This document shows, in pieces, positions 5,087 through 24,131 of a stretch of 26,554 nt of DNA; position 1 is the stretch's first letter; the number at the start of each line of letters is the position of its first letter. Source of the DNA: Treponema sp. (lineage in GTDB: Bacteria > Spirochaetota > Spirochaetia > Treponematales > Breznakiellaceae). The notes below the pieces were generated by a model. It saw nothing but the letters and a program-made list of their open reading frames with translations. It made no database searches and was not told where the DNA came from. The position numbers were made by a program, and so were the translations under genes. The stretch is taken from the NCBI GenBank assembly GCA_031264475.1, contig JAISEA010000033.1, positions 1-26,554 of the forward strand, written 5' to 3'.

Positions 5087-5093
5087 AAGTTAG

Positions 5094-6316: not shown

Positions 6317-6322
6317 TGTTCC

Positions 6323-7247: not shown

Positions 7248-7258
7248 CCCCCCCCCCC
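7248..7258. repeat. Homopolymer tract C11 (G11 on the coding strand)
   Basis: Eleven consecutive C lie six bases from the rpoD stop codon and about 90 bases upstream of the zinc-ribbon gene start. Long G:C homopolymers are unstable by slippage, and poly-G tracts are known phase-variation sites in Treponema pallidum. No promoter that the tract would obviously retune was identified. Confidence 0.9.
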
Positions 7259-7264
7259 AACTCT

Positions 7265-9028: not shown

Positions 9029-9046
9029 TTTTCAAATTCCTTATGA

Positions 9047-10867: not shown

Positions 10868-10913
10868 ATAGAAATAATAATATATTTTCCAAAAATAGGA
10901 AACAGAAATAAAG

Positions 10914-10969
10914 AGCAGATAGCAGATAGTAAAGAGTAGTTAGCAGTTAGCAAAGAGGAATGAGTAGAG
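10914..10969. repeat. Degenerate heptanucleotide repeats (AGCAGAT-like), left flank of repeat island
   Basis: Eight consecutive 7-base units can be read: AGCAGAT twice, then AGTAAAG, AGTAGTT, AGCAGTT, AGCAAAG, AGGAATG and AGTAGAG. Each begins with AG. The purine-rich strand is the plus strand here, opposite to the similar units at 11655-11724, so the two clusters are inverted about the GACACC island between them. Confidence 0.8.
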
Positions 10970-11039
10970 GAAGACCAGCGGCAGACTTCGCACGTGAGGC
11001 GTGGTGTAAGCCGCCGCCCCGCCCCGTGAGCCGCCTTCC

Positions 11040-11640
11040 CAACACCTCTGACACCACGCCGCCGCTGTCGCAATATGTCTGACACCGCCCCGATGCCTGA
11101 CCCTCGCGCCCTGACACCGCCCCGATGCCTGCCCAACGCCTCAGACACCACGCCGCGCTACCGCCGTCCCGCCGTGTGCCTGACCCCGCCGCCTCAGACA
11201 CCATGCCGCCGCGCCTTCGTGTCTGACACCGCCCCGATGCCTGACCCCGCGCCTCAGACACCACGCCGCCCCGCCTTCGTGTCTGACACCACGCCTCAGA
11301 CACCACGCCCCGCTACCGCCGCCCCGCAACCTCTGACACCACGCCCCGCCGCCGCGCCTTCGTGTCTGACACCGCTCCGACGCCTGACACCACGCCGCAC
11401 TACCGCCATCCCGCCGTGTGCCTGACCCCGCCCCGTGAGCCGCCTTCCCGCCGCCTCAGACACCACGCCGCGCCGCCGTCCGCCGCGCGTCTGACACTGC
11501 CCCGATGCCTGACCCTCGCGCCCAGCCCTCGCCCGCCCATCTTCCCTTTGCTCTCTGCTCATTACTCTCTGCTCTTTCCTCTTGACCCCAGCCTGACACC
11601 GCCCCGCCGCCTCTGACACCGGACCGTGCGCCACCATCCC
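11040..11640. repeat. C-rich, G-poor island with about 15 copies of CTGACACC/CAGACACC
   Basis: The plus strand is dominated by C and contains about 15 copies of C(T/A)GACACC, many embedded in longer shared phrases such as GTCTGACACCGCCCCGATG and CTCAGACACCACGCC. Spacing is irregular (roughly 15-70 bases), so this is not a simple tandem array or a CRISPR. Open frames exist on both strands but encode only Pro/Thr/Arg- or Gly/Arg-rich low-complexity sequence that changes with frame, so no gene is called. A pyrimidine heptamer patch (CTTTGCT, CTCTGCT, CATTACT, CTCTGCT, CTTTCCT) is embedded at 11546-11580. The same motif recurs near 14075-14120 and 23475-23830. Confidence 0.8.
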
Positions 11641-11654
11641 AACGCCCGTCTTTC

Positions 11655-11724
11655 CTTTGCTCTCTGCTACCTGCTCACTACTACCTACTACCTGCTACCT
11701 GCTAATTGCTAATTGCTACCTGCT
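11655..11724. repeat. Degenerate heptanucleotide repeats (ACCTGCT-like), right flank of repeat island
   Basis: Ten 7-base units in a row: CTTTGCT, CTCTGCT, ACCTGCT, CACTACT, ACCTACT, ACCTGCT twice, AATTGCT twice, ACCTGCT. The complement of this cluster resembles the purine cluster at 10914-10969, so the island is bracketed by inverted heptamer blocks. Confidence 0.85.
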
Positions 11725-11740: not shown

Positions 11741-11769
11741 TTGACAATTCTCATTTTTTGAGTAATTAT
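11741..11769 (+). promoter_or_regulatory. Candidate promoter upstream of the poly-C tract and 21-bp array
   Basis: A perfect TTGACA (11741-11746) is followed after 17 bp by AATTAT (11764-11769), a four-of-six -10 match. A transcript from here would run through the C11 tract and the 21-bp array into the gene at 12181, with a leader of about 400 bases. The -10 is weak, so this is tentative. Confidence 0.4.
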
Positions 11770-11954: not shown

Positions 11955-12164
11955 CTTAAATTCATGGAGTCAGGTTTTAAATTCATAGAGTCAAAGTTTA
12001 AATTCATTGAGTCAGCTTTTAAATTCATAGAGTCAGGTTTTGAATTCATAGAGTCAAACTTTGAATTCATAGAGTCACGTTTTAAATTCATAGAGTCAGA
12101 CTTTGAATTCATAGAGTCACGTTTTGAATTCATAGAGTCAGACTTTGAATTCATAGAGTATTTT
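11955..12164. repeat. 21-bp tandem array, 10 units (array 1)
   Basis: Ten head-to-tail units of exactly 21 bp, built on the core AATTCATAGAGTCA, end directly before the ribosome-binding site of the 12181 gene. Differences cluster in one hypervariable triplet (GGT, AAG, GCT, AAC, CGT, GAC) and in one A/G switch. In the frame beginning at ATG 11940 each unit reads as F-(K/E)-F-I-E-S-x and stops at TAG 12165, giving a 75-residue heptad peptide; no Shine-Dalgarno sequence precedes that ATG, and the opposite strand is also open. I treat it as a noncoding array that might be translated. Many units contain the palindrome TGAATTCA. Confidence 0.93.
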
Positions 12165-12180
12165 TAGAGGAGGGATGAAC

Positions 12181-12819
12181 ATGAGTTTCATGCCATTTGG
12201 AGAAAAGGGATTTTCGGATTTCGCCGAAGTTTTTGCGGAAACGACGGAGGATATCGCCACGGTGCTGGGCATACCGGCGGACGCGGCGACGAATGTAAAA
12301 GCGCTGTGCACCGCGTATCAGGCGGCGTACACGGCGTGCGAGGCGCCCAACGCGGGACCGATTGACCGCGAAGACCGCAAGGAGAAGCGGTCCGCATTGG
12401 AAGCCGCGATACGCAGGATCAAGAACGCGTACATAGACGGAGACCCCAAGGGGGTTGTAACCAACGAGGTGCGGATGAAGTTCGGACTGCCGCCCAAGGA
12501 CGTGATCCACACGCCTGTGGAGCCGCCGAGTGAGATCCCCGCGTTCTCGCTGGAATCGGGCGGCTACTTACAAGTAACCGTGACGCATCCTGCGAAGCCC
12601 ACTAATTACAACGGGGCGGTGTTGTTCTACCGGGTAAGCGAAGAGCCTGTTACGAGCCACGAGGAGCTAACGTCGTCGAAGTTGCTCACGCGCGTGAAGG
12701 AGACGTTGGTTTTCAAGGACGTGGAGCGGCTGAAGACGCTGTCTGCGGCGCTGTGCTGGGAGAACGAGAAGGGGCAACTCGGTCCCGTGTCGCCGATACA
12801 GGTGTTGACCATCGTCTAG
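12181..12819 (+). CDS. Protein of unknown function: helical N-terminal half, fibronectin III-like C-terminal half
   Basis: This 212-residue protein has no signal peptide. The N-terminal half is helical and alanine-rich (about 10-100, with LCTAYQAAYTACEAP and ALEAAIRRIKNAYI). After a PPKDVIHTPVEPP linker comes a beta-rich domain (about 120-210) whose ending, LCWENEKGQLGPVSPIQVLT, resembles the last strands of a fibronectin type III fold. From memory, similar helix-plus-beta proteins occur in gut bacteria and other environmental groups without known function. ATG 12181 is preferred over ATG 12175 because AGAGGAGG then has proper spacing (about 7 bases). Third-position GC is visibly higher than in neighbours, hinting at transfer. 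The 21-bp array lies directly upstream, separated by 16 bases. Confidence 0.82.
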   Translation: MSFMPFGEKGFSDFAEVFAETTEDIATVLGIPADAATNVKALCTAYQAAYTACEAPNAGPIDREDRKEKRSALEAAIRRIKNAYIDGDPKGVVTNEVRMKFGLPPKDVIHTPVEPPSEIPAFSLESGGYLQVTVTHPAKPTNYNGAVLFYRVSEEPVTSHEELTSSKLLTRVKETLVFKDVERLKTLSAALCWENEKGQLGPVSPIQVLTIV

Positions 12820-12833
12820 GAGGAGAAATATCC

Positions 12834-12965
12834 CGGCGGTGCGCCGCCGTGGATAGCGGCTGTGGTACGCGCAGTATTGCGTACAAAGCGGAAGGTGTTC
12901 CGTGAAAGCAACCGTTGGTTGTGGGAACCGCCGCTGAATAGGACGGTATACGAAAGGTTCGTATA
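12834..12965 (+). other. Run of five hairpins downstream of the 12181 gene (possible structured RNA)
   Basis: Five separate perfect stems follow one another: CGGCGG/CCGCCG (12834-12849), GTACGC/GCGTAC (12865-12884), CGGAA/TTCCG (12889-12902), CAACC/GGTTG (12909-12921) and TATACGAA/TTCGTATA (12947-12965). There is no T-run, so it is not a normal terminator, and no coding frame is convincing. It could be a structured 3' UTR or a small RNA. GAACC at 12925 could also pair with GGTTC of the last hairpin. Confidence 0.45.
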
Positions 12966-13055
12966 TCAAAACTGTTATGCGAAATGGCGTTTTGGTGAAA
13001 TAGTTTGAATACCTACGTCATAGCATGACACTAAAAATATTAGATTGAGGTTGTT

Positions 13056-13379
13056 ATGAAAAAATTGATTTTGACCGTTTTTGGATTTTTGTTTTTGGCT
13101 GGGTTTTTGCCTGCGCAAGACCGCCAAATCGCGCGTACGGATTTAAATGCTATTCCCACCCCCGGCGAATCTGAAATAGTGTTTAAATCATTAGATCAAG
13201 ATTGGTGGTATGTGGTTTCTATGGACGGGAAGCCTCTCGCGCAAGTTGAACCGGGAAGCCCTGAAAAAATAATCGTCAAGAACGGTTATAATAAACTAGC
13301 GATACAAGTTGGTCTTGTCGACAAAAGGGGGAGACTTCCAGACGGTGGCGTAGAAATTTTTATGGAGGAGCGACGATGA
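13056..13379 (+). CDS. Small exported protein of unknown function
   Basis: This 107-residue protein has a clear signal peptide: MKK, a hydrophobic stretch to about residue 18 and a likely cleavage after LPAQ (residue 21). The mature part is probably beta-rich and contains DQDWWYVVSMDGKPLAQVEPG, suggesting a small globular periplasmic or surface domain. I do not recognise the family. GAGG lies 5 bases before the ATG. Its stop overlaps the start of the next gene (ATGA), so it is translationally coupled to the LpoB/CsgG-like protein and the two probably act together in the envelope. Confidence 0.8.
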   Translation: MKKLILTVFGFLFLAGFLPAQDRQIARTDLNAIPTPGESEIVFKSLDQDWWYVVSMDGKPLAQVEPGSPEKIIVKNGYNKLAIQVGLVDKRGRLPDGGVEIFMEERR

Positions 13380-13909
13380 AGAAAGTTTTGATTCCGGTGA
13401 GCGTTATCATGCTTGCCGCGGTTTTGGTTCTGCCCGTTTACGCGACGGGGGGCGTGGAAGCGGATCCCGCCGCGCAGACACCCCCGTCCCCGACATCAAC
13501 AACCCCGGCGAATTCAAGCCCTGCGTCAAATATAGAAGGCGCTTTGGCAAAAGGCGCGGAACAAACATTGCGGAATGTTCCTCAACGCTCAAAGATTGCG
13601 ATTGTCTATATAACCGCCCAAGACCGCAGTACAACGGATTATATTGCGGGCGAGCTTGAATTCATTTGGGTAAACGAGGGTTTTACGCTCATAGACAGAA
13701 GCCAGTTGGACAGGTTGCGTCGTGAACAAGACTTTCAAATGAGCGGCGAAATTGATGACGAGACGGCGGTCTCCATCGGAAAGTTCGCGGGAGCGGATAT
13801 TATCGTAACCGGGAAAATAGACGGTGAAGGCAGTCTCCGCAGACTGCGGTTGCGGGCATTGGACACGCAAACGGCGCAGGTTGTAGGAGCGGCGTCAGAA
13901 GCATTTTAA
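13376..13909 (+). CDS. Exported LpoB/CsgG-like protein
   Basis: The 177-residue protein has a signal peptide (MKKVLIPVSVIMLAAVLVLPVYA, cut as hydrophobic residues 4-20) followed by a Pro/Thr/Ser-rich linker (about 30-52) and a compact domain. That domain has the pattern of the CsgG/LpoB fold: KIAIVYITAQDRSTTDYIAG, ELEFIWVNEGFTLIDRSQLD, LRREQDFQMSGEIDDETAVS and AGADIIVTGKID. Such proteins in spirochaetes are usually annotated as penicillin-binding-protein activators or curli-assembly-like; the true role here is unknown. There is no lipobox cysteine at the cleavage site. It overlaps the preceding gene by 4 bases. A short broken frame and a strong terminator follow. Confidence 0.85.
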   Translation: MKKVLIPVSVIMLAAVLVLPVYATGGVEADPAAQTPPSPTSTTPANSSPASNIEGALAKGAEQTLRNVPQRSKIAIVYITAQDRSTTDYIAGELEFIWVNEGFTLIDRSQLDRLRREQDFQMSGEIDDETAVSIGKFAGADIIVTGKIDGEGSLRRLRLRALDTQTAQVVGAASEAF

Positions 13910-13923
13910 CAAGGAGAGATAAT

Positions 13924-14080
13924 ATGAGTTGCATCTGAAGACAATGCTAGTTACATTATAGAAGAATTGGAATACAGGCTAGAAGATTTGAGTATTGAAA
14001 CGGCATTGAACAGTATCGGACACCAAGGCGGGGTCTTGCGTAAGCGCAGAACCCCGCTATTTTTTTGTAACGATGTCTGA
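13924..14080 (+). pseudogene. Remnant of a short gene, frameshifted just after its start
   Basis: AAGGAGA stands at normal distance before ATG 13924, yet that frame stops after four codons (MSCI). One base downstream (frame from 13928) an open stretch reads VASEDNASYIIEELEYRLED, then LSIETALNSIG, with protein-like acidic helical composition and no start codon of its own. A single-base change after the ATG would restore a reading frame. The frame runs into the terminator stem, so only the first 30 or so codons look like former coding sequence. It may be a decayed third gene of the 13056-13909 operon. Confidence 0.35.
14028..14066 (+). terminator. Rho-independent terminator of the 13056-13909 operon
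   Basis: A long stem begins GCGGGGT (14028-14034) and closes with ACCCCGC (14051-14057): about 13 pairs including one mismatch and one G-T pair, with loop TAAG. It is followed by TA and seven T (14060-14066). This is the clearest intrinsic terminator in the window. Confidence 0.9.
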
Positions 14081-14231
14081 CACCACGCCACGCCGTCCGC
14101 CTGTGCAACGCGCCTCTGACACCGCTCCCGTCTTTCCTCCTTGCTCTTTGCTTGACCCCATCGCCCATCTTTCTTCTTTTCTCATTACTCTCTGCTCTTT
14201 GCTACCTGCTACCTGCTACCTGCTCATTATT
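14075..14231. repeat. Small repeat patch: CTGACACC motifs and heptamers
   Basis: Two CTGACACC copies (GTCTGACACCACGCC near 14075 and CTCTGACACCGCTCC near 14113) are followed by seven 7-base units at 14183-14231: CATTACT, CTCTGCT, CTTTGCT, ACCTGCT three times, CATTATT. It is the same combination as in the island at 11040-11724, at smaller scale. No gene is evident between the terminator and the promoter at 14242. Confidence 0.75.
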
Positions 14232-14241
14232 CTTTGGTATA

Positions 14242-14270
14242 TTTACATTTTTTAAGTTTTGCAATATCAT
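14242..14270 (+). promoter_or_regulatory. Promoter for leaderless foldase-ispH-pth operon
   Basis: TTTACA (14242-14247) and TATCAT (14265-14270), each five of six to consensus, are 17 bp apart. The -10 ends 8 bases before the ATG at 14279, and there is no Shine-Dalgarno sequence. This is the best-scoring of the leaderless promoters seen here. Confidence 0.7.
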
Positions 14271-14278
14271 ACAACATT

Positions 14279-15292
14279 ATGATTAAACAGACATTTAGCG
14301 GACTTTTATTGGCGCTCATGGCGGAAACGGCTTTTGGGGCGGCTGTGGATTCCTTGGGAAATGGGATTTTCGCGGTCATTAACACGACAAAAGGCGACAT
14401 CGTGATACGCCTCGAATACCAGAAAGCGCCTCTTACAGTATGTAACTTCATCGCCCTCGCGGAAGGAACGATGAAGAACACGGGAAACAAGCCTTTCTAT
14501 AACGGCTTAACCTTTCATCGCGTCATAGCGGATTTCATGATTCAAGGCGGTGATCCACTTGGAAATGGAACAGGCGGTCCAGGCTACCAATTCCCAGATG
14601 AGGACACTGGTTTCACCTTTGACGGACCCGGCGTAATGGCTATGGCAAACGCGGGAGCTAATACAAACGGCAGTCAATTTTTCATCACCCACGTGAAAAC
14701 ATCATGGCTCAACGGTAAACACACCATATTCGGTCATGTCATGCAAGGGCAAAACGTAGTGAACGCCATCGCGCAAGGCGATAAAATAACCCGCATCTAC
14801 ATTGTAAGAAACGGGACGGAAGCCGCCGCTTTCAAGGCAGACCAGACGGCTTTCGACAGACTCCTACAGAATTGGAAGAACAACCAATCCGCGAAGATTC
14901 GGGCGAAACGCGATTCCGACCTTGCGGCAATTAAGAGGAAATACCCGACGGCGCAGGAGACGGCTTCCAATATAAAATACATCATTCAAAAAGAAGGAAA
15001 AGGCGCAAAACCAGCGAAAGGACAGACCGTTTCCGTCAAATACAAAGGAATGTTTCTTTCTGGTGAAGTCTTCGATGCTTCAGACATTCACGGCGGTCCC
15101 CTAGAGTTCAAAATCGGTATGGGCATGGTCATCGCGGGATGGGAAGAGATGCTACTTGATATGCAGATAGGTGAGAAACGCCTCATTGTCCTGCCGCCAG
15201 AACTCGCCTACGGCGAACTCGGCGCAGGCGAAGGCGCCATCCCGCCGAACAGCTTCCTCGTTTTTGAACAAGAACTAATCGCTATAAAATAA
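14279..15292 (+). CDS. Dual-family peptidyl-prolyl isomerase: cyclophilin-FKBP fusion, exported
   Basis: The protein speeds cis-trans isomerisation of X-Pro bonds and probably assists folding of exported proteins. It has 337 residues. An N-terminal hydrophobic stretch (about 5-20, ending in FGAA) looks like a signal peptide. A cyclophilin domain follows (about 28-185) with TFHRVIADFMIQGGDP (78-93, catalytic Arg81) and NGSQFFITH (130-138). A charged linker leads to an FKBP domain (247-337) with VKYKGMFLSGEVFD, VIAGWEEML and LPPELAYGE. This order (cyclophilin then FKBP) is known from Treponema denticola and a few other organisms. The start is ATG 14279, 8 bases after the -10 box; an in-frame TTG at 14234 lies upstream of the -35 and is rejected. 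ispH follows after 3 bases. Confidence 0.95.
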   Translation: MIKQTFSGLLLALMAETAFGAAVDSLGNGIFAVINTTKGDIVIRLEYQKAPLTVCNFIALAEGTMKNTGNKPFYNGLTFHRVIADFMIQGGDPLGNGTGGPGYQFPDEDTGFTFDGPGVMAMANAGANTNGSQFFITHVKTSWLNGKHTIFGHVMQGQNVVNAIAQGDKITRIYIVRNGTEAAAFKADQTAFDRLLQNWKNNQSAKIRAKRDSDLAAIKRKYPTAQETASNIKYIIQKEGKGAKPAKGQTVSVKYKGMFLSGEVFDASDIHGGPLEFKIGMGMVIAGWEEMLLDMQIGEKRLIVLPPELAYGELGAGEGAIPPNSFLVFEQELIAIK

Positions 15293-15295
15293 ACC

Positions 15296-16156
15296 ATGAA
15301 AGTCATACGCGCGTCTGCGATGGGTTATTGCGCGGGCGTGAGACGGGCTATGGAAATCGCCTTAAAAGAGACCGCATACGGACTACCCGTATTTACCCAA
15401 GGACGCTTGATCCACAACCTTACTGCGTTAGAAAGTCTAAAAGAGCGCGGAGTGAGAGAACTCGACGATAACCCACACGGCATAATAGATGGAACAACCG
15501 TCGTACTTCGCGCTCACGGTGTTCCCCCAGCGCGCGAGGCGGAACTATCCGCTCGCGGCGCAAGAATCGCCGACGCCACCTGCCCAAAAGTCAAGAAAAA
15601 CCAGCTGAAAATCCAGTCGCTTGCAAAGGACGGGTTCCGTGTATTTCTCGTTGGCGAAAAAACCCACGCGGAAATCGTTGGACTCATGGGTTACGCGGAC
15701 TGCATCGTGGTTGAAAACGCGGAGGAGGCGAGACGTTCCGCTGAAAGACTATTCAACGAGAACCCCCACTCAAAAACCGCGGTCATGGGGCAGACGACTC
15801 TTTCAACCGATGTTTACCTATCCGCGACAGAGGCGATTAAGGATATTTTCTCAGACGTATGCGTCATTGATACGATATGCCCCGCGACCAAAGACAGACA
15901 AGATGCGGTCAAGAAACTCTGCGCCTCTGTAGACGCGGTTGTGATAGTAGGCGGTAAAAAGTCCGCAAATACGCGGCGGTTGTTCCACATAGCGAAGGCG
16001 TCTGGAAAAGCCGTCTATTTCATAGAAACCGCAAAAGAATTACCGCCGTCGGTTTTCACCTATGATATAGTCGGCATTTCCGCAGGCGCGTCGACGCCTG
16101 ATGAGATCATCGACGAAGTAGAGAACCGTCTTTTAAGGAAAGAAGAATGTCAATAG
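15296..16156 (+). CDS. ispH: 4-hydroxy-3-methylbut-2-enyl diphosphate reductase
   Basis: IspH is the iron-sulfur enzyme that catalyses the last step of the MEP pathway, making IPP and DMAPP for isoprenoids. The 286-residue protein has the three cluster-binding cysteines in GYCAGV (Cys12), DATCPKV (Cys96) and DTICPAT (Cys195), the substrate histidines in LIHN (His40), RAHG (His74) and KTHAE (His124), and the QTTLS motif. Length is slightly shorter than the E. coli enzyme but complete. The gene begins 3 bases after the foldase stop and ends overlapping pth by 10 bases, so the three are translationally linked. Confidence 0.97.
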   Translation: MKVIRASAMGYCAGVRRAMEIALKETAYGLPVFTQGRLIHNLTALESLKERGVRELDDNPHGIIDGTTVVLRAHGVPPAREAELSARGARIADATCPKVKKNQLKIQSLAKDGFRVFLVGEKTHAEIVGLMGYADCIVVENAEEARRSAERLFNENPHSKTAVMGQTTLSTDVYLSATEAIKDIFSDVCVIDTICPATKDRQDAVKKLCASVDAVVIVGGKKSANTRRLFHIAKASGKAVYFIETAKELPPSVFTYDIVGISAGASTPDEIIDEVENRLLRKEECQ

Positions 16157-16707
16157 AACTCGTAGCGTTTCTGGGGAACCCAGGACCCGTATATGCGCGT
16201 AACAGACACAACGTTGGATGGCTTCTGTCTGAAAATACGCCCCTCCTTGCTTCCGCTCAATGGCAAAAAAAACACAAAAGCTTGTTTACGAAAATAGGGA
16301 ACGTTTATTTCCTCAAGCCTGAAACATATATGAATATGTCTGGGATAGCCGTTCAAAGCGCGGCTGTATTCCTAAAAATACCGCCTGAAAGAGTCTTGAT
16401 CGTCCATGATGAACTTGATTTGGACTTGGGGCAAGCGAGCTTCAAGTTTGCTGGAGGACTCAACGGGCATAACGGACTAAGGTCTATCAAAGCCTGTCTT
16501 GGTTCCGCTGATTTCTGGCGTTTGCGTATAGGCATAGGCAGACCCGAAAAGGGCGAAGTTATTGATTGGGTACTTTCCGACTTTACGTCAGACGAGTCTC
16601 CTCTATTAGAAAGCGTTCTTTCCGCAAGCGCTCTCGCCATTGCCTCCGCGCTTGCGGACGGACCGGAAAGTCTCTTGCCTGAATGGGCGAAAAAACGGAT
16701 ATATTAA
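16147..16707 (+). CDS. pth: Peptidyl-tRNA hydrolase
   Basis: Pth releases tRNA from peptidyl-tRNA that drops off ribosomes, an essential recycling step. The 186-residue protein has LGNPGPVYARNRHNVGW (Asn11, catalytic His21), the MNMSG motif (Asn63), HDELDL (Asp88) and GHNGLRS (Asn109), all expected for the family. The ATG lies within the end of ispH, with AAGGAAAG upstream. It is the last gene of the operon; no clear terminator follows and repeats begin about 190 bases downstream. Confidence 0.96.
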   Translation: MSIELVAFLGNPGPVYARNRHNVGWLLSENTPLLASAQWQKKHKSLFTKIGNVYFLKPETYMNMSGIAVQSAAVFLKIPPERVLIVHDELDLDLGQASFKFAGGLNGHNGLRSIKACLGSADFWRLRIGIGRPEKGEVIDWVLSDFTSDESPLLESVLSASALAIASALADGPESLLPEWAKKRIY

Positions 16708-17423
16708 CACCCATTCGCGGACTCTGCATAAGGCGAGTTAAACAAGTTTAATTTTAAAATAGGATTATCCCCCCTCGTATACCTGACTAAAATATCAAAC
16801 GGGATCGAAGTAAATGTAGATGTACCCATTGTATATTGTCTATCAGAAATGTTTTTCCATCCGCGAAGAATCGCTTCTTGATCTCGTAAGATCAGAACTT
16901 GGTACAGGTATCCGAAAAGTTCGGAGAGGTATCCGAAAAGTTCGGAGAGGTATCCGAAAAGTTCGGAGAGGTATCCGAAAACTTCGGAGAGGTATCCGAA
17001 AACTTCGTACAGGTGTCCGAAAACTTCGGAGAGGTGTCCGAAAACTTCGTACAGGTGTCCGAAAAGTTCGTACGGGTGTACTATCATGGAACCTCGAAGT
17101 TCCGTCATGGAAACTGTAGGTTCTGTCATGGAAACTGTAGGTTCTGTCTTGGAACCTCGAAGTTCTGTCATGGAAACTGTAGGTTCTGTCATGGAAACTG
17201 TAGGTTCTGTCATGGAAACTGTAGGTTCTGTCATGGAACCTCGAAGTTCTGTCTTGGAAACTGTAGGTTCTGTCTTGGAACCTTGAAGTTCTGTCATGGA
17301 AACTGTAGGTTCTGTCTTGGAACTTAGAAGTTCCGCCTTGGAAACTGTAGGTTCTGTCTTGGAAACTGTAGGTTCTGTCTTGGAACCTCGAAGTTCTGTC
17401 ATGGAAACTGTAGGTTCTGTCAT
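16704..17423 (-). CDS. Possible heptad-repeat protein encoded by arrays 2 and 3 (doubtful)
   Basis: A 239-residue minus-strand frame crosses both arrays. It begins with MTEPTVS/MTELRGS heptads, continues through (Y/H)LSEVFG heptads and ends in about 60 nonrepetitive residues (from ILRDQEAILRGWKNISD). The nonrepetitive tail looks protein-like, and both arrays keep one frame even though their sequences are unrelated. Against a real gene: there is no Shine-Dalgarno sequence or promoter at the ATG (17423), the start lies inside the array, the stop overlaps the pth stop, and 21-bp periodicity keeps frames open by itself. Confidence 0.2.
   Translation of the reverse strand: MTEPTVSMTELRGSKTEPTVSKTEPTVSKAELLSSKTEPTVSMTELQGSKTEPTVSKTELRGSMTEPTVSMTEPTVSMTEPTVSMTELRGSKTEPTVSMTEPTVSMTELRGSMIVHPYELFGHLYEVFGHLSEVFGHLYEVFGYLSEVFGYLSELFGYLSELFGYLSELFGYLYQVLILRDQEAILRGWKNISDRQYTMGTSTFTSIPFDILVRYTRGDNPILKLNLFNSPYAESANGC
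16902..17080. repeat. 21-bp tandem array, 8 units (array 2)
   Basis: Eight units of exactly 21 bp (16908-17075), preceded by a partial unit, carry the core GTATCCGAAAAGTTCGGAG. Variable positions are A/G in GTA/GTG, G/C in AAG/AAC, and GGAGAG versus GTACAG. Across unit borders TTCGGA and TCCGAA form inverted arms around six bases in most early units. One plus frame reads VSEKFGE-like heptads and the minus strand reads (Y/H)LSEVFG-like heptads; all frames are repetitive. Confidence 0.93.
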
Positions 17424-17438
17424 GGAACCTCGAAGTTC
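17086..17438. repeat. 21-bp tandem array, about 17 units of two types (array 3)
   Basis: About 17 units of exactly 21 bp follow array 2 after 10 bases. There are two unit types sharing ATGGAA at the start and GTTCTGTC near the end: type P has CCTCGAA in the middle and type T has ACTGTAG. The order is P T T P T T T P T P T P(variant) T T P T P. Some units start TTG instead of ATG. The plus frame is broken by TGA at 17284, while a minus-strand frame runs through arrays 2 and 3 without a stop. Confidence 0.93.
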
Positions 17439-17466
17439 AGATAGCAGTTAGCAATGAGTAAAGAGG
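17439..17466. repeat. Heptamer patch at the end of array 3
   Basis: Four 7-base units (AGATAGC, AGTTAGC, AATGAGT, AAAGAGG) begin where array 3 ends. They match the purine heptamers at 10914 in style and orientation. Confidence 0.6.
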
Positions 17467-17477
17467 AAATATTTCGT

Positions 17478-17533
17478 GGCGAAAAGCCGTCCGCGACATT
17501 CTTCTTTAAAGAAGACGCTACGGCTGTTTCGCC
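17478..17533. other. Long inverted repeat with nested palindrome
   Basis: GGCGAAAAGCCGT (17478-17490) pairs with ACGGCTGTTTCGCC (17520-17533) with one bulged base. Inside lies the perfect 14-base palindrome CTTCTTTAAAGAAG (17501-17514). No T-run follows. It may be a structured RNA, a bidirectional roadblock or a repeat end. Confidence 0.55.
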
Positions 17534-17604
17534 TAAAGCTGTCTGACTGTTCTTCGCTTCTTCTGGGAGTCATAACCTGTCTCTAAAAAGGTGGAGCAGA
17601 ACAA

Positions 17605-17692
17605 GACGCTTTTAAACACACGTGAACACACCACGTGTGAACACCCTAAGGGTGTGGGTATATGTACAGGTATAATTGCGTTTAAAACGGTC
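17605..17692. other. Predicted three-way-junction structure (candidate noncoding RNA)
   Basis: An outer helix pairs 17605-17617 (GACGCTTTTAAAC) with 17680-17692 (GTTTAAAACGGTC), 11 of 13 pairs. It encloses two perfect hairpins, CACACGTG/CACGTGTG (17617-17639) and ACACCC/GGGTGT (17641-17655). The arrangement is compatible with a small structured RNA or a cis element. The sequence matches no RNA family I recognise. Confidence 0.4.
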
Positions 17693-18103
17693 CTCTGTTC
17701 CTAATCGTTACAACTGAAAAAATAAGATATTTTGAATTTATTCGCTAGACAATTGTCTGATTCTTTAGTAATATATAAATATCCTTATAGAAGGCGTAAA
17801 AAGATATTAGATGATGCCGACATGAACGATTATATTTTTATAGTCATGCGCTCGATACGAATGTAAAGTTCGCTGATAAGTGTATTACTCGTTATAGTCA
17901 TGTTTCCTTCGTTCTTATTACAACGCTTTTTTATAGACGATTATCTTCGATAATGCAACGGCGTTCTTTCGATATAAGGTTTTGATAAATAACAAACTGT
18001 AAATCAGCGGAATTCATAAAGGAGTCCGTATTGTCTCTTATTGTGAAGGAAGCTTTTAAGTTCAAGGCTTTTCCCGGTTGCATAGCATACGGTTAAGCAG
18101 GAG
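17693..18103. other. AT-rich gene-free stretch
   Basis: About 400 bases without a convincing gene. TATAGTCATG occurs twice (near 17850 and 17897). AAAGGAG (about 18018-18024) precedes a TTG-started frame of about 21 codons ending at TAA near 18096, which could be a leader peptide but has no other support. No consensus promoter with good spacing was found. Confidence 0.4.
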
Positions 18104-18160
18104 TGGGAGATTCCCATTCTTAATAAATTTAAGAAGCCACGAGACGATGCCTCGCGGCTT
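18104..18160 (+). promoter_or_regulatory. Three hairpins in the leader of the 18178 gene
   Basis: Three stems stand in a row: TGGGA/TCCCA (18104-18116), TTCTTAA/TTAAGAA (18117-18135), and AAGCC-CGAG/CTCG-GGCTT with one mismatch (18134-18160). The last two share two bases and so compete slightly. The third ends about 7 bases before the Shine-Dalgarno region, so the leader may modulate translation or transcript stability. No known riboswitch is recognised. Confidence 0.45.
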
Positions 18161-18177
18161 TGTTATGGAGGAAGCTT

Positions 18178-18642
18178 ATGAAAAAGCTTGGTTTGACAGC
18201 ATTAGTGTTGTTAGTAGGAACGGGGTTGTTCGCGCAGACGGTGTTTACCGCTAAGGCGAGTGACGCGAAGGCAAAGGTAACCGTAGATGCCAAGAAAGGT
18301 ACTTATGCGGTTGATGGCGTATTAGCGAAAGACGGTGTATTCACCGTTGACTTTACCCCGGATGCGGCGACATTGGCGGCTTTGAAGAAAGGTAAAACCC
18401 TTACAATTTCCGGTAAAGACTTGGGATCAGGCGCTCCCGATTATATCGTCAATGTATTCACAGACGCTAAAGACCCTATCGCAACCCCAGCGAAGTTCAG
18501 CAAAGCCGGCGCGGTAGTTACCATTGACTTTGGCAAAACGAAGATAGCCCCTGACAAGATTACTAAGCTACAAGTCGCCGCGGGTTTCGGTAAAACTGGC
18601 GGAGCGGTCAAATTTGAACTCTCCGCTATTGCAATAAAGTAG
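18178..18642 (+). CDS. Exported beta-rich protein of unknown function
   Basis: This 154-residue protein has a signal peptide (MKKLGLTALVLLVGTGLFAQ) with likely cleavage after FAQ. The mature part is rich in Lys, Ala, Thr and Val and in short beta-type stretches (KVTVDAKKGTYAVDGV, DGVFTVDFTP, VVTIDFGKTK), without cysteine, suggesting a small immunoglobulin-like or surface domain. I do not recognise the family. The ATG at 18178 follows GGAGG by 6 bases; an upstream in-frame ATG at 18160 lies in the leader hairpin and is rejected. A terminator-like hairpin follows, so it is probably monocistronic. It may be abundant, given the strong ribosome-binding site. Confidence 0.85.
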   Translation: MKKLGLTALVLLVGTGLFAQTVFTAKASDAKAKVTVDAKKGTYAVDGVLAKDGVFTVDFTPDAATLAALKKGKTLTISGKDLGSGAPDYIVNVFTDAKDPIATPAKFSKAGAVVTIDFGKTKIAPDKITKLQVAAGFGKTGGAVKFELSAIAIK

Positions 18643-18658
18643 TTCTGGACAGACCATC

Positions 18659-18692
18659 GAATCCATCCCACTAATGGGGTGGATTCATTATT
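18659..18692 (+). terminator. Terminator-like hairpin after the 18178 gene
   Basis: GAATCCATCCC (18659-18669) pairs with GGGGTGGATTC (18676-18686), 11 pairs with one G-T, loop of six. It is followed by ATTATT rather than a pure T-run, so termination may be partial. Confidence 0.7.
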
Positions 18693-18774
18693 GACGAATT
18701 CTTCTTACCTAATAAGGGAGAGAATTCTTTCCTATTTTAAAGCGATAACAAAATATCTTATAAAGGAGGAGATT

Positions 18775-20949
18775 ATGAAGCTTAAGTTACGGATGACGCT
18801 TATTACAGGCGGTATGATACTGATAGTCATTGTAATCATATCCAGCGTGTTGCTTATGCGGGCAAGGAAACTACAGCAAGAATCAGCTTTTGATGTGATG
18901 CAAAACCTATCAGGAATGTATGCACAGGAATTCAGGAATAAATACGAGAACTATCTGGTAGTGGCGAAAACAATTGCGGGATTTATGGTAAACTACCAAA
19001 TGATAGATGAGACGATGAGGCGCTCACAGTTTGACGAAATCTTGTATAGCGCGATCGATTCTAACAACGACTTTTTGGGAATATTTACACTTTGGCTTCC
19101 GGGTAGAATAGACGACAGGGACGAAGAATTAGCCAATACACCCGGTACAGACGCGTCGGGCAATTATATGACGTGGTTCTCTAAGCATGGCGGCGCCATC
19201 GACAAATACGCTTTGTCGGAATATGGATCTTATCAAGAAATCTTTGCCATTCTTAATAATAGAAACCCGGTGATAGCTGATCCACATTTTGACATGATAA
19301 GAGCGGAACGAAAATTAGTCGGTCGAGTGAGTTATCCCATCGTCGTCAATGATGAAATAGTGGGACGAGTCGGCGTCAACTTCGATCTCATAGGTAGTCA
19401 GCTTATTATCGACGGTATTAAGCCTTACGGGGTTGGAAAGGCTGCGATTATTTCTCATGACGGCAGTATAGTCGCCATAAGTGACCTATCGGGAACAGGA
19501 CAGAATTTTTCAAACGTGATGCTCAATACGCTTGGAAAAGAGGGGATTGGCGAGGTGAACAATGCCCTGCAAAGCGGTAATCCCGTTCCGATAGACACCA
19601 AGAACGTCATATTGCAAGTTTCGCCTTTCGTCATTGAAGGAACAGGCACTCCGTGGGCGTTTATCGCCAACGTTCCCAAAACCACAGTCATGGAAAACGT
19701 AAACGCCCTAACCAACTTCACCATTATAGTCGCCATTATCTCAATCATCGTTACGAGTGTGATAGTCTTCTTCATGGCAGGCAGTATAGCCACCCCCATC
19801 ATCAATGTTACGAATACGTTGAAGGATATATCCGAAGGCGAGGGCGATCTAACCAGGACCATTAACGCCAACGCAAAGGATGAAGTGGGAGACATGGCGC
19901 ATTACTTCAATGCAACCATTGAAAAAATCAGGAAGCTCGTCGCAAGCGTGAAGGATCAATCTGTTTCCCTTTCTGGTATAGGAAACGAGCTTGCATCTAA
20001 TATGACGGAAACCGCGGCCGCGGTCAACGAAATCACCGCCAATATCCAGAGTGTCAAGGGACGGGTTGTCAACCAGTCCCTTTCGGTTACTAAATCTAAC
20101 ACCGTAATGGAACAGATAACCGTTAGCATCGACAAGCTCAACGGTCATATTGATAAGCAGACAGAAAGCGTAACCCGCTGTTCCAGCGCCATTGAAGAAA
20201 TGGTTGCCAATATACAGTCTGTTACCCAGACCCTCGTCAAAAACGTGGAGAATGTATCGAAACTTTCGGGAGCTTCCGAAATAGGCAGAATAGGCTTGCA
20301 AGAGGTATCAGGGGATATTCAGGAAATCGCGCACGAGTCCGAAGGCTTGCTTGAGATCAATGCTGTAATGGAAAACATAGCGAGCCAAACGAACCTTCTT
20401 TCCATGAACGCGGCAATAGAAGCGGCGCACGCGGGCGAGGCGGGCAAAGGTTTCGCGGTTGTTGCTGACGAAATCCGTAAACTCGCCGAGTCGTCAGGAA
20501 AGCAATCCAAGACCATTTCTACCGTCTTGAAGAAGATAAAAAACTCCATTGATAAAATCATTAAATCCACAAGCGCGGTTCTGAACAAATTTGAAGACAT
20601 CGACAAGAATGTTAAGGTTGTATCCGAACAGGAAGAGAATATCCGTAGCTCGATGGAAGAGCAGGGACAGGGTAGTCAACAGATACTCGAAGCTATGAAC
20701 CAGCTCAACAACATAACACAGTTAGTCAAATCAGGCTCCAACGAAATGCTCGAAGGAAGCCGTCATGTTATAAATGAAAGTAAGAACCTCGAAATCGTCA
20801 CCCAAGAAATCACTCAAGGTATGAACGAAATGGCTTCGGGTACAGACCAAATCAACACAGCTGTGAGTCAGGTGAATAACCTCAGTAACGACAATAGAAA
20901 CCACATTGATGTGCTTGTCAAAGAAGTTTCCAAGTTCAAAATCGAATAG
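18775..20949 (+). CDS. Methyl-accepting chemotaxis protein
   Basis: This is a transmembrane chemoreceptor that signals through CheW and CheA to the flagellar motors. It has 724 residues: a first membrane helix (about 8-28), a large extracytoplasmic sensor (about 35-310) with the Cache-type features [13 protein letters not shown] and [20 protein letters not shown], a second helix (315-335), a HAMP domain (336-390) with ISEGEGDLT, and a long cytoplasmic signalling coiled coil. The hairpin tip is the conserved [20 protein letters not shown] (537-556), which binds CheW/CheA. The ligand is not predictable. The start ATG 18775 has AAAGGAGG 5 bases upstream; upstream in-frame codons lack this. It ends without the C-terminal CheR-binding pentapeptide of some receptors. 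Confidence 0.97.
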
Positions 20950-20952
20950 TAA

Positions 20953-21020
20953 GCGGTAAGGGCAGGATGCCTTTACCGCAATCCATGTTACGCAGAGGAT
21001 AATTCTTCTTGCGTAACATG
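20953..21020 (+). terminator. Tandem inverted repeats after the chemoreceptor gene
   Basis: The first hairpin, GCGGTAAGGGCA/TGCCTTTACCGC (20953-20979), has 12 pairs with one G-T and a GGA loop. The second, CATGTTACGCA/TGCGTAACATG (20984-21020), has 11 perfect pairs around 15 bases. No strong T-run follows either, so termination is likely but not certain. Confidence 0.65.
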
Positions 21021-21061
21021 AGTTATATTTTCCCCTTGTAAATAAGTTTCTTTGATGGTAT

Positions 21062-21067
21062 TATAAT
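21062..21067 (+). promoter_or_regulatory. Perfect -10 box of a leaderless gene
   Basis: TATAAT ends 7 bases before the ATG at 21075, and no Shine-Dalgarno sequence is present. A TTGTAA at 21036-21041 is the nearest -35-like hexamer, but its 20-bp spacing is long, so the -35 is uncertain. Confidence 0.5.
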
Positions 21068-21074
21068 AATCAAT

Positions 21075-21632
21075 ATGAAATTTTCTCGTCCCTTCATCGC
21101 TCATTGTATATTTATAGTAGGTCTGTTTTTCACACTAATAGGTATTGTGTTTCTGTTGGGAAATCTTGCTAATATTTCGCAGAAACGTCTCTTTTTATCG
21201 TTTCTTTTCGGCGTAATCGGGGCAGGATCCGCTTTTTTCGCTTTATCGCTCAATAAGCGCGCGGTCTATCTTTTCTTTGGGTCATTCTTCATAATGGTAG
21301 GGCTGTTTCTATTCTTATCCGCTTTGCATATCTTCCCATTTTCTATTAGAGAAACGTGGCCCCTTGCCGTGGTTTTTTCGGGATTGGCGCTTGCGCCTGT
21401 GGGGTGGCGTAAATATGGACGGTTTCACCCTGTATTCATGGTTCCAGCCATAACTTTCGTCATTCTGGGCGGTGTTCTATTGATGTTCTCTTTTAGAATT
21501 GTTTCGTTTAATTTCAGGCAGTTTGTTCTTAATTGGTGGCCGGTGTTTCTTATTTTAGCAGGGATTATGCTTCTTCTGATCGCTTTAAGCAATAAGGGAA
21601 TAGAAAGAAAAGGCGGAGAAGGAAAAACGTGA
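21075..21632 (+). CDS. Six-helix membrane protein, LiaI/LiaF-like
   Basis: This 185-residue protein is nearly all membrane-embedded, with about six hydrophobic helices (near 9-30, 38-58, 62-86, 92-108, 117-138 and 148-168) and a short basic C-terminal tail. The last helix starts NWWPVFLILAGIMLLL, a pattern shared with LiaI/LiaF-type and DUF5668-like envelope proteins, which often sit with cell-envelope stress regulators; that similarity is from memory and its meaning here is unclear. No partner regulator is present. The stop overlaps the start of the TPR lipoprotein gene by 4 bases, so the two are co-translated. Confidence 0.8.
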   Translation: MKFSRPFIAHCIFIVGLFFTLIGIVFLLGNLANISQKRLFLSFLFGVIGAGSAFFALSLNKRAVYLFFGSFFIMVGLFLFLSALHIFPFSIRETWPLAVVFSGLALAPVGWRKYGRFHPVFMVPAITFVILGGVLLMFSFRIVSFNFRQFVLNWWPVFLILAGIMLLLIALSNKGIERKGGEGKT

Positions 21633-23368
21633 GAGCCATAAAATGGTTTCTTGTTTTAGCGACATTTACCTCATGTGTGGGGGAGCCTGCGGTTCAATCT
21701 CCTTCTCAATTCGTTCCGATTGTGGAAGCGGAAGATACTGATACGACGGCGCGGGACGCGGCTGGTTCCGAAGAGACAAGACCTATTACGGGCAGATCGC
21801 CCAACATAGCCGAAGAAATTCGTGATCTGGTATGGAAGGCAACCCCTTCCTCCCTCCTCAGGGCGCTTGATCTAATCCGTAACCATGAACTGTCAAACGG
21901 CGAATTCGGCAGAGCTATGAGCGCGGTGAGTGTCTACCTGCTCAAAACCATCTATCCTGACGTGAAAGGAACCTTTCCGCAGACTGACCCTCCTAAAATA
22001 GGCGTCTACTCCATTTATACGAAGATACTCAGCGATGTGGGGCGTGGTATTTACACGCCGCCCTCCTCTTCAAGCGCGAATTTTCTGGTATATATTCTTC
22101 CTTTCTTGGCTTTGTTGAACGACTCTAATGGCGACAGAATGTCTGTAGCCGTGCCTGACTTACAGAAAGCTGTCTCTCTGAATCCGTCCAGTCCTATGGC
22201 TCCGTATTTATTGGGTTTTTCCTATGAGAAGAGCGGTGATCTTTCAGCGGCTCTTGATGAATACGTGAAAGCTCTAGCGGTTTCCCCGGAATGTTACCCG
22301 GCGGCTCAAGGCTCGGCGCGTATCATGATGGAGCGTGGGCTTTATGAGGACGCGGTCAAGGCGCTTTCCACTCTGCTTGTGTCTTATCCTGAAAGCATGA
22401 GTATAAAAAAACAGCTTGCCCGTGTCTATTTTGCGATGAAGGATTGGTCGCGGGCGGAAAACGCCATTGCCGAGATTCTACAGCGGAATGGCAGGGACGG
22501 CGAATTTCTCCTCATGCGCGCGTACGTGTTGGTGGAAAGAGGGCTTTTCTCGCAAGCCCAAGCGCCTCTTGACCTCTATACGTCTATAAATCCAAATAAT
22601 CCAGAATATCTGTTTCTGCGCGCCCGTATTCAGGCGGAAGGGTACCGGAATAGGGACGCGGCGTTAAACTACTTGCGCGCGCTTTCGGCTTCCTTTTCGG
22701 TTGATGAATCAATTGTCGTGTATATGGCGAAGCTCCTCATAGAGTCGCCGCGAAACGCGGAACAGTTGGAAGGATATACCATCCTTGACCAGCTTTTGAA
22801 GGGCGAATCTCCGTCCATAGCGGTCATGGAATTGGCAATCGCGGACGCCATTAAGCGGTCCGCGTGGGATGATGCCCGTCTCTATGCGGGCAAACTGCTG
22901 GAAGAGAGGCGTTCTCCGGAGGACTTGTTGAACGCATACACGGTTGAACACGGCATTGGTAACAACGCGGCGGCGCTTTCCTATGCGCAGGAACTCTATG
23001 AGGCGGACCCCGCAAACGAAGAGGCTTGTGTCGCGTATATTTCCGCGCTAATGGATACTGGTCGCGCCGATGAAGCATCGCGTCTCATCAACGCCAAACT
23101 ATCGTCAGCGCCAAACGGCTTTGCTAAAGCGCATTACTATTATTTAAGAAGCAAAACAAGAGCCAGCGATGAAACGAAGCTGGGCGATCTCCGCTCCTGT
23201 CTCTTTGAAGACCCTCGCAACTTAAACGCGCTTATTGCTATGCTTGAGTTTTACCGCGGGCAAAGAGACGACCGCCGCGCCATCTACTATCTGAAACAGG
23301 CGCTCACCATCTCTCCTGACGACCCCACCCTCAAACAATACGAAAAAGACTACGCGGAACAGCCCTAA
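21629..23368 (+). CDS. TPR-repeat lipoprotein
   Basis: This 579-residue protein starts at GTG, overlapping the preceding stop (GTGA). Its N terminus MRAIKWFLVLATFTSC ends in a spirochaete-type lipobox, with Cys16 the likely lipidated residue. A low-complexity acidic linker follows. From about residue 170 to the end the chain is tetratricopeptide helices, for example APYLLGFSYEKSGDLSAALD and, near the C terminus, AIYYLKQALTISPDDPTL. Such proteins scaffold protein complexes; here it would lie on the periplasmic face of a membrane, next to the polytopic protein encoded before it. No enzyme domain is visible. Its TAA stop is directly followed by the inverted-repeat element at 23369. Confidence 0.88.
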   Translation: MRAIKWFLVLATFTSCVGEPAVQSPSQFVPIVEAEDTDTTARDAAGSEETRPITGRSPNIAEEIRDLVWKATPSSLLRALDLIRNHELSNGEFGRAMSAVSVYLLKTIYPDVKGTFPQTDPPKIGVYSIYTKILSDVGRGIYTPPSSSSANFLVYILPFLALLNDSNGDRMSVAVPDLQKAVSLNPSSPMAPYLLGFSYEKSGDLSAALDEYVKALAVSPECYPAAQGSARIMMERGLYEDAVKALSTLLVSYPESMSIKKQLARVYFAMKDWSRAENAIAEILQRNGRDGEFLLMRAYVLVERGLFSQAQAPLDLYTSINPNNPEYLFLRARIQAEGYRNRDAALNYLRALSASFSVDESIVVYMAKLLIESPRNAEQLEGYTILDQLLKGESPSIAVMELAIADAIKRSAWDDARLYAGKLLEERRSPEDLLNAYTVEHGIGNNAAALSYAQELYEADPANEEACVAYISALMDTGRADEASRLINAKLSSAPNGFAKAHYYYLRSKTRASDETKLGDLRSCLFEDPRNLNALIAMLEFYRGQRDDRRAIYYLKQALTISPDDPTLKQYEKDYAEQP

Positions 23369-23468
23369 CAGGCGAAGCCTGTTTAAATACTTCGCACGGG
23401 GCGTTGTCCGAAAGGGGGCGCCGCTTCCACTGACTTGACGGTTACGCTTGTAAACAAGCGGAACCTAC
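23369..23468 (+). repeat. Left 100-bp terminal inverted repeat of a 740-bp element
   Basis: This stretch matches the reverse complement of 24009-24108 over exactly 100 bases without gaps, with about 10 mismatches (90%). It begins with the self-complementary CAGGCGAAGCCTG and ends near the inverted pair CGCTTGTAAACAAGCG. It starts on the base after the TPR gene stop codon. Confidence 0.93.
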
Positions 23469-23497
23469 GCGATGTCGGTGTCAGACACCCTTCGGGT

Positions 23498-23588
23498 GTT
23501 TCAATACTTCACGAGGGGTGTTGTTTGAAAGGGAGCGCCATTGACCCCGACTTGACGGCTACGCTTGCTTTGCAAGCGTAACCTACGC
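23498..23588 (+). repeat. Diverged second copy of the terminal-repeat unit
   Basis: This segment aligns with 23381-23470 (for example TACTTCAC...GGGGTGTTGTTTGAAAGGGAGCGCC and ACTTGACGGCTACGCTTG) at a period of about 117 bases. The right half of the element contains a weaker inverted counterpart around 23958-24007 (shared TGACCCCGAC), so the element is a layered palindrome. Confidence 0.7.
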
Positions 23589-23603
23589 GGTGTCTGACAC
23601 CAC

Positions 23604-23833
23604 ACGTCTGACACCGCCGATAAGCGCTTATCAGACTTCCATAAGCGCTTGTCACACTTCCATAAGCGCTTATCAGACTTCCATAAGCGCTTGTCACACT
23701 TCTATAAGCGCTTGTCACACTTCCATAAGCGCTTGTCACACTTCCATAAGCGCTTGTCACACTTCCATAGGCGCTTATCACACTTCTATAAGCGCCTATA
23801 GAAAGGCGGCGAGCAGGCGGCGGTGTCAGACGT
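23604..23833. repeat. Perfect 16-bp inverted repeat enclosing the 21-bp array
   Basis: ACGTCTGACACCGCCG (23604-23619) and CGGCGGTGTCAGACGT (23818-23833) are exact inverted copies and bracket array 4. They contain the same CTGACACC motif as the islands at 11040 and 14075. A related 13-base palindrome, GGTGTCAGACACC, lies near 23477. Confidence 0.9.
23620..23800. repeat. 21-bp tandem array, 8 units plus a partial (array 4)
   Basis: Eight units of exactly 21 bp start at 23620 with a ninth partial from 23788. Each carries ATAAGCGCTT and CACTTC (or AGACTTC). Units with CTTAT form the 12-base palindrome ATAAGCGCTTAT; the others have CTTGT, and two late units carry GGCGC or GCGCC changes. Both strands are open and read as SAYQTSI-like or SVTSAYG-like heptads with no start signals. 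Confidence 0.93.
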
Positions 23834-24008
23834 GCGGGTTTTGGGGGGTGGCGGAAGACCGCGCAAGCGGGCTGGAGACAGGGGGGCGCACCACATGGGC
23901 GCCTGTTTGCCCCCCTCCGTTTAGGGAAAGACGCGCCCCCCTCCTGCTTATGCCTGTACGACTTCGCTTCGCTTGTCGGGGTCAGCGGCGCATCCTTCCT
24001 TATAACGA
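23834..24008. other. Inner right part of the inverted-repeat element, G/C-rich, no gene
   Basis: Contains several further hairpins: CCGC/GCGG around GCAA (near 23859), and a GGGGGGC run (near 23881) that can pair with GCCCCCC (near 23909). Nothing here looks like coding sequence. Confidence 0.5.
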
Positions 24009-24108
24009 GTAGGTTCCGCTTGTTTACAAGCGTAACCGTCATCTCAGTGGAAGCGGAACCCCCTTTTGTACAACGCCCATTGTGATGTATTTAAACAGGC
24101 TTCGCCTG
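24009..24108 (-). repeat. Right 100-bp terminal inverted repeat of the 740-bp element
   Basis: Reverse complement of 23369-23468 at about 90% identity without gaps. It ends with CAGGCTTCGCCTG, the complement of the left-end hairpin. No convincing target-site duplication flanks the two ends. The purL promoter lies just outside. Confidence 0.93.
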
Positions 24109-24131
24109 TAGAATAATTCTGCTGGTTTCAC

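Follow-up and report, generated by a model that had tools for sequence, protein, structure and literature searches.

Tandem arrays of fixed period in Treponema-like spirochaetes lie beside two gene families and may be parts of gene-plus-array modules

The window analysed here, a stretch of 26,554 nucleotides from Treponema sp. (GenBank assembly GCA_031264475.1, contig JAISEA010000033.1, positions 1 to 26,554), carries four tandem arrays, all with units of 21 bp. Array 1 lies directly upstream of a gene that we call X, with its end 16 bp from the start of that gene, and arrays 2, 3 and 4 stand alone among other genes. The neighbours in the window with Pfam matches are DnaG, RpoD, CsgG-like, PPIase, LytB and Pth, and the coordinates of the features discussed below are collected in Table 1. 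Among eight LytB loci recovered from the species genomes, the best match (69% identity) belongs to Treponema sp. isolate Cd354_bin125; metagenome-assembled genomes of this kind come from termite guts.

A preliminary description of this DNA had reported four intergenic arrays with an exact 21-bp period, free of indels and sharing no sequence. The four arrays and their period were confirmed by Tandem Repeats Finder (TRF), by slicing and by autocorrelation: all four keep register when cut into 21-nt slices, and over the whole window (lags 5-129, 100-nt windows) stretches with at least 75% identity are confined to lags 21, 42, 63, 84, 105 and 126. In twenty replicas of the window generated by a first-order Markov model, TRF reported a single row (score 51); the period-21 rows of the real arrays score 253-446. 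Freedom from indels holds for arrays 1, 2 and 4 but not for array 3. The consensus units are indeed unrelated, the best circular match being 9-10 of 21 positions for all six pairs (p 0.56-0.98 against shuffled units). The arrays are also intergenic, but the placement of array 1 is not random; its pairing with a gene had been overlooked, and this pairing recurs over many genomes.

Nearly all X genes sampled are closely preceded by a 21-bp array of their own. X genes were surveyed in about 40 genomes, which gave 93 evaluable rows representing 92 distinct genes (G027:C7 is present twice), and an array was called where the similarity at a given lag was at least 0.62. Upstream similarity at lag 21 reached this threshold in 81 of the 92 distinct genes (82 of the 93 rows), and seven more genes had a 42- or 63-bp period, for a total of 88 of 92; one of the four X genes without any upstream array is a fragment (L087). 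The best lag among the 89 rows above threshold was 21 (35 rows), 42 (27), 63 (26) or 14 (1), a multiple of 21 in 88 of 89, and the downstream control of X reached threshold at lag 21 in 1 of 90. The gap between array and start codon has a median of 50 bp (range 0-146). Among the called genes of the window and its sister genome G026, a 21-bp array was found upstream of 22 of the 23 X genes for which the upstream sequence was long enough and of 30 of 650 other genes (Fisher p 6e-26). Relatives of array 1 in G026 lie upstream of X at three loci (L052, L078, L080); L088 and L132 match the window to 12218, where the contig ends inside the place of X, and two further relatives lie at a contig end (L081) and with no X beside them (L075). 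A later search for X only gave 16 distinct loci, 11 of them with an array; four (L268, L270, L272, L274) had been counted earlier, leaving arrays at 7 of 12 new loci. Of the five loci below threshold, one is from G001 (0.60, best lag 21). The other four are from G025: three are short pieces or match X weakly, and one falls just short of the threshold (0.59, best lag 21). Twelve stretches of four genomes without X (G014-G017), 161 kb together, contained no array with period 21 or 23 at a copy number of about four or more.

X is a multigene family: tblastn located it at 20 places in G026 and the window, and an iterated profile recovered 38 members, whole open frames and pieces counted together. 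It is present in 117 of 195 genomes of the family. Phylum-level samples contained it in 4 of 296 genomes (phylum of G001) and 1 of 288 (phylum of G197). A search for X in phages and plasmids gave no match, and the DNA of one locus (L172) matched four phage records, all over just a 188-bp end piece. Six X proteins compared to Pfam gave no match except two chance rows (E 0.13 and 0.19). The fibronectin type III (Fn3) fold of the C-terminal domain is indicated by a structural match over most of the domain (residues 114-214 compared); the N-terminal part gave no usable fold match, its single-sequence model being poor (predicted local distance difference test score, pLDDT, 54.5).

The preference for 21 bp extends well beyond the window. 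G026, whose RpoD is 99% identical to that of the window, matches the window DNA at 96.5% identity over 2112-10994 and 94.4% over 17448-23425, and was sampled as 69 stretches totalling 961,972 bases, half of the genome (TRF score at least 70, one row per overlapping cluster). This sample has a strong peak at 21 bp, with 133 arrays of period 21, 25 of period 23, 17 of period 7, 10 of period 14, one of period 22 and none of periods 20 or 24; with at least four copies, 105 arrays of period 21 and 23 of period 23 remain. The arrays are not located mainly inside genes, since their mean overlap with genes called by a simple codon model is 18% compared to 71% for random placement, although 21 of 109 arrays of G026 and the window lie more than half within a called open frame. 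Neither finding named in the preliminary description as refuting it, a period distribution lacking the 21-bp peak or a location chiefly within expressed genes, was obtained in this half genome. The 118 arrays of period 21 in G026 and the window fall into 75 unit clusters. As separate observations, the matches of the window to G026 (L097, L120) break off at 10994, 17448 and 23425, in or beside array-containing regions, and several contigs of metagenome-assembled genomes (MAGs) start or end within arrays.

A second gene family tends to be followed by 23-bp arrays, most of which begin at the stop codon. Period and gene family go together in at least two phyla, the Spirochaetota and the Bacteroidota, with a weak case in one genome of a third. 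The products of this family combine HU-DNA_bdg (PF14848), described by Pfam as a DNA-binding domain, with DUF4469 (PF14734), and are called HU-DUF4469 here; DUF4469 genes occur in 72 of the 195 genomes of the family. Among 31 distinct HU-DUF4469 loci with downstream sequence (L036 and L212 being one locus), downstream similarity at lag 23 was at least 0.62 in 22, the best lag being 23 in 17 rows and 46 in five; three other rows above threshold had best lags of 30, 14 and 43, and none had 21. In a set of 24 arrays of period 23, delimited by a slightly different criterion and with positions counted from the end of the stop codon, 17 begin at -20 to +8 nt and seven at 22-161 nt beyond it. Five of the six HU-DUF4469 genes of Parabacteroides distasonis TSDC17.2-1.1, in records listed as plasmids, are followed by 23-bp arrays (lag-23 similarity 0.78-0.88, 50-nt windows), while the sixth shows lag 24 at 0.66, and one gene of the Verrucomicrobiota, the phylum of G197, has a weak 23-bp array (0.64, 50-nt windows). 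An unannotated faecal phage record holds an HU-DUF4469 gene without a 23-bp array, and a scan of viral contigs with a Parabacteroides HU-DUF4469 protein found no relative. Among G026 genes other than HU-DUF4469, a 23-bp array lies at most 250 bp downstream of 16 of 638 and upstream of 4 of 650, a bias towards the 3' end.

The units turn over faster than the gene, while the period stays and follows the gene family. Units were shared (at least 15 of 21 positions in the same orientation) by 78% of pairs with X identity above 0.9, 54% at 0.8-0.9, 16% at 0.7-0.8 and fewer than 1% below 0.5; at 0.7-0.8, sharing in reverse orientation was 11%. No support was found for selection for differing units among paralogues of the same genome, an incompatibility idea: where X identity was equal, same-genome and cross-genome pairs looked alike (above 40% identity, each class held 3 to 12 same-genome pairs).

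The preliminary description had also pointed to a small dyad in most of the window arrays. For these arrays the claim is weaker than stated, with support for array 2 (p 0.026) and not for array 4 (p 0.18), array 3 (p 0.42) or array 1 (p 0.99), but a dyad excess appears when many arrays are pooled. Compared to a permutation null, the excess has z 9.6 for 82 X-linked arrays (z 7.4 for 58 non-redundant units), z 4.7 for 41 solo units and z 5.8 for 24 arrays of period 23. In dyad units of both periods the arms are conserved and the centre and linker are variable. Covariation within units as an indicator of hairpins (57 pairs) gave z 2.4 overall, yet 13 arrays had an excess and 24 a deficit. A weak pattern of a purine run and a pyrimidine run is common to the 58 X-linked units (z 6.1 sense, z 7.1 in both orientations) and was not found in 46 solo units (z 0.7). 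For a sub-period of 7 bp within the 21-bp units, there was no excess in entropy and some in the purine/pyrimidine pattern. Variation along the units has a 10.5-bp component (z 5.2, 79 arrays, column permutation).

No remnant of X or HU-DUF4469 was found near arrays 2 and 3 (16100-18200), and array 4 is likewise without a neighbouring piece. Across G026 and the window, an X piece lies within 800 bp of 23 of 109 arrays. The unit of array 3 is related to units at three further G026 loci, forming one cluster of L045, L046, L047 and the window, and that of array 4 to units in L047 and L114. In L120, array 4 was not found in the roughly 600 bp that follow the syntenic gene up to the contig end. Together with the dispersed flanks in Table 1, arrays 2-4 look like copies that were spread without a gene.

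We give about even chances to the reading that the arrays are parts of gene-plus-array modules, in which the neighbouring protein is predicted to recognise its own array through DNA shape and repeat spacing. For HU proteins, DNA structure rather than sequence determines binding. In the proposed mechanism, the gene's own protein (through the HU-type domain or, in X, the helical part) would coat its array as a row of dimers, and these dimers would recognise the shape and spacing of the DNA and not its letters. The period of the array would be the footprint of the bound protein, and the ordered nucleoprotein assembly may regulate its own gene or organise the locus. On this view, arrays 2-4 would be solo copies that spread without the gene and either act as extra binding places or are remnants. 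Binding of a protein in phase with the helix, as suggested in the preliminary description, remains plausible, but two helical turns are an insufficient account, as the second array class has period 23 and goes with another gene family.

Several observations weigh against the module reading. Pfam recognised no DNA-binding domain in the six X proteins, and 23 bp is a non-whole number of helical turns. Even at 75-80% identity, X proteins have differing units, an argument against recognition of specific letters, and individually significant dyads are rare (9 of 82 X-linked arrays at p at most 0.05 and one of the four window arrays). Nine of the 31 HU-DUF4469 loci have no clear downstream 23-bp array, one of these (L240) having an array upstream instead. 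The association with X has exceptions in both directions: four of six new X loci or fragments in G025 are without a clear array, as is the X homologue of a Verrucomicrobiae genome, and G005, a Treponema MAG without X, has one 21-bp array in 200 kb (L071:9051-9197). Finally, 86 of the 109 arrays of G026 and the window have no detected X alongside, although some of these are close to the end of a contig, so that X may have been truncated.

The main rival, which we judge unlikely but take seriously, is that the module is a mobile or amplifying element, its arrays copied by a mechanism with a built-in ruler that keeps the period at 21 or 23, and that the gene is only a frequent passenger or a mobilising factor. 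Such a ruler could come from small hairpins, at which copying slips or switches template, or from an enzyme encoded at another place. Copying would fit the flanks that array loci have in common at several places in G026, the missing array 4 at the syntenic site of the sister contig, the large number of solo arrays and the likeness of units within arrays and their difference between arrays; the dyads, moreover, favour hairpins on either strand. Pure copying explains neither the link of period 21 to X and of period 23 to HU-DUF4469 nor the upstream place of one array and the downstream place of the other. The Pfam comparison of six X proteins also gave no transposase or polymerase domain.

Action at the RNA level, with stem-loops in the 5' leader of X and at the 3' end of the HU-DUF4469 message controlling stability or translation, appears distinctly improbable. 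Many arrays do have a promoter-like site on one side and the start codon on the other, as 37 of the 66 X-linked arrays with 250 bp of upstream sequence are preceded by a site scoring at least 8 (18 expected from shuffles), and the starts of 17 of the 24 delimited 23-bp arrays at the HU-DUF4469 stop codon would suit this explanation. The arrays also fold better than their column-permuted versions (mean z -1.8 for X-linked and -2.4 for 23-bp arrays). However, the sense strand is not preferred. Mismatches in paired columns are G.T in 201 and A.C in 202 cases for 30 X-linked arrays, where both strands fold with equal energy, and 73 and 66 for the 24 arrays of period 23, where sense and antisense energies are again equal; this equality indicates a feature of the DNA rather than of the RNA. 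Furthermore, 15 of the 31 X loci with a gap of at least 60 bp have a promoter-like site in the gap or overlapping the last 20 bp of the array (4.6 expected), which would place the array outside the leader, and a series of stem-loops needs no exact period.

Selfish or neutral minisatellites that lie beside X because both prefer the same variable islands are a very improbable explanation. The arrays are dispersed, synteny to the sister genome breaks where they lie, and the ends of several MAG contigs fall within them, but their placement beside X is one-sided and close, as the short gaps show, and the counts for X and other genes in G026 and the window already speak against it. In the sampled stretches of G001, one 21-bp array (about four or more copies) was found in 134 kb, yet most X loci of this genome carry one.

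Least probable is the idea, also raised in the preliminary description, that 21 bp stands for seven codons of a heptapeptide repeat: each of the four window arrays has at least one open frame, and a modest excess of open sense frames in X-linked arrays (108 versus 87, z 3.6; antisense z 1.6) speaks for coding in that subset. As a general explanation, coding was rejected. In 79 arrays from G026 and the window, 202 open frames compare with 206.6 expected by column permutation, and the variation lacks a 3-bp periodicity. Relative to X, the open frames prefer none of the three frames (33/40/35 of 79), and array-covering frames start with ATG, GTG or TTG and have no consistent ribosome site. The sister class, moreover, has a period of 23, which no reading frame keeps.

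Among known systems, the partition centromere or iteron would be the nearest working analogy to the proposed mechanism, and we claim no membership. Plasmid parC with ParR, tubC with TubR, parS of pSM19035 with omega, and iterons are tandem repeats beside or upstream of the gene for their binder; this protein also represses the promoter of these genes and can form a helical nucleoprotein (PMC5016525). X likewise has an array next to the gene, whose product is a candidate binder. It differs in that the annotated genes around the X of the window include no motor nucleoside triphosphatase (NTPase) or replication initiator, and the six X proteins gave no Pfam match to a ribbon-helix-helix, helix-turn-helix (HTH) or winged-helix domain, the fold comparison covering residues 114-214. 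Moreover, there are many modules per genome with unrelated repeats, and the window arrays lie among housekeeping genes.

Repetitive extragenic palindromic (REP) sequences and bacterial interspersed mosaic elements (BIMEs), with REP-associated tyrosine transposases (RAYTs), are palindromic intergenic repeats in many dispersed copies with one gene family linked to some of them. Here the six X proteins have no match to the Y1 (IS200-like) transposase (Pfam, E at most 1), and the repeats form long head-to-tail arrays of exact period whose units are unrelated between most loci. Clustered regularly interspaced short palindromic repeats (CRISPR) and tandem interspaced guide arrays resemble the present arrays in their regular period, and some arrays here have a constant and a more variable half; in contrast to CRISPR, there are no unique spacers, the units being near-copies over 21 bp, and no Cas-like gene among the annotated neighbours. 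The layout of X, in turn, resembles that of HU-DUF4469 proteins and their solved relative 4FMR, with a helical or DNA-binding N-terminal part and a C-terminal immunoglobulin (Ig)-like or Fn3-like domain. X nevertheless matches neither PF14848 nor PF14734 in the six proteins compared, and its array is upstream with period 21. TDE_2259 of Treponema denticola is mentioned as an HU-DUF4469-type protein in PMC12724145.

The link of two gene families with arrays of different period suggests an undescribed kind of protein-plus-array system. Among open-licence PMC papers we found no description of these arrays, nor of arrays for the HU-DNA_bdg/DUF4469 family. More tentatively, and with less than even confidence, X with its 21-bp arrays and HU-DUF4469 with its 23-bp arrays may be the first two members of a chromosomal class that pairs a small, predicted DNA-binding protein with a neighbouring tandem array. 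In such a class, the protein family would set the period, the dyad form and the side of the array and leave its sequence free; shape-reading proteins would build period-locked nucleoprotein rods for self-regulation or chromosome organisation, and the arrays could spread without the gene. To our knowledge, the array sequence is what is conserved and recognised in the array systems compared above; here the letters drift at a fixed repeat length, and different neighbouring gene families go with different lengths. If the protein does bind its array, this would be a new mode of self-linked DNA recognition, and would give a role to two protein families so far without known function.

Table 1. Features of the window by position, with the HU-DUF4469 loci of other sequences in the last row
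Feature	Position	Strand	Remarks
Promoter-like site before array 1	11741-11769	+	Putative; TTGACA, 17-bp spacer, AATTAT; consensus scan score 11.5
Array 1	11956-12159	+	TRF: period 21, 9.7 copies, 84% match, 0% indels
Gene X	12175-12819	+	214 aa; family without Pfam model; helical N-terminal part, Fn3-fold C-terminal domain
Short open frame after X	12820-13005	+	tblastn, 8 high-scoring segment pairs on 7 loci
Left flank of array 2	16761-16905		In common with the G026 array loci L045 (89%), L079 (85%) and L047; blastn and alignment
Array 2	16906-17070		TRF: period 21, 7.9 copies, 93% match, 0% indels; solo
Array 3	17084-17427		TRF: period 21, 16.4 copies, 83% match, 2% indels; solo
Right flank of array 3	17440-17680		In common with the G026 array loci L045, L046 and L047; alignment
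Dispersed repeat left of array 4	23380-23601		117-bp units, 1.8 copies, TRF; copies in L114, L127 and L101
Array 4	23620-23795		TRF: period 21, 8.4 copies, 92% match, 0% indels; solo
Dispersed repeat right of array 4	23817-24123		A dozen copies listed in G026 stretches, 73-87% identity
HU-DUF4469 loci with downstream 23-bp dyad arrays			L036, L049, L114, L213-L239; L254-L256, L259, L260 (P. distasonis); L261

The short open frame that follows X in the window is conserved after few X genes and one HU-DUF4469 array (loci L078, L080, L052, L165 and L114). A downstream partner gene of X was considered and dropped, as the frame recurs at few loci only. Around array 1 and X there are also degenerate 7-bp repeats of the TGCTACC and TAGCAGT types (11546-11724, 14200-14224 and 10909-10957), which are distinct from the 21-bp units. 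GC-rich dispersed repeats around TGACACC occur at 10990-11500 and at several G026 loci, with arrays of periods 25, 28, 52, 60 and others.

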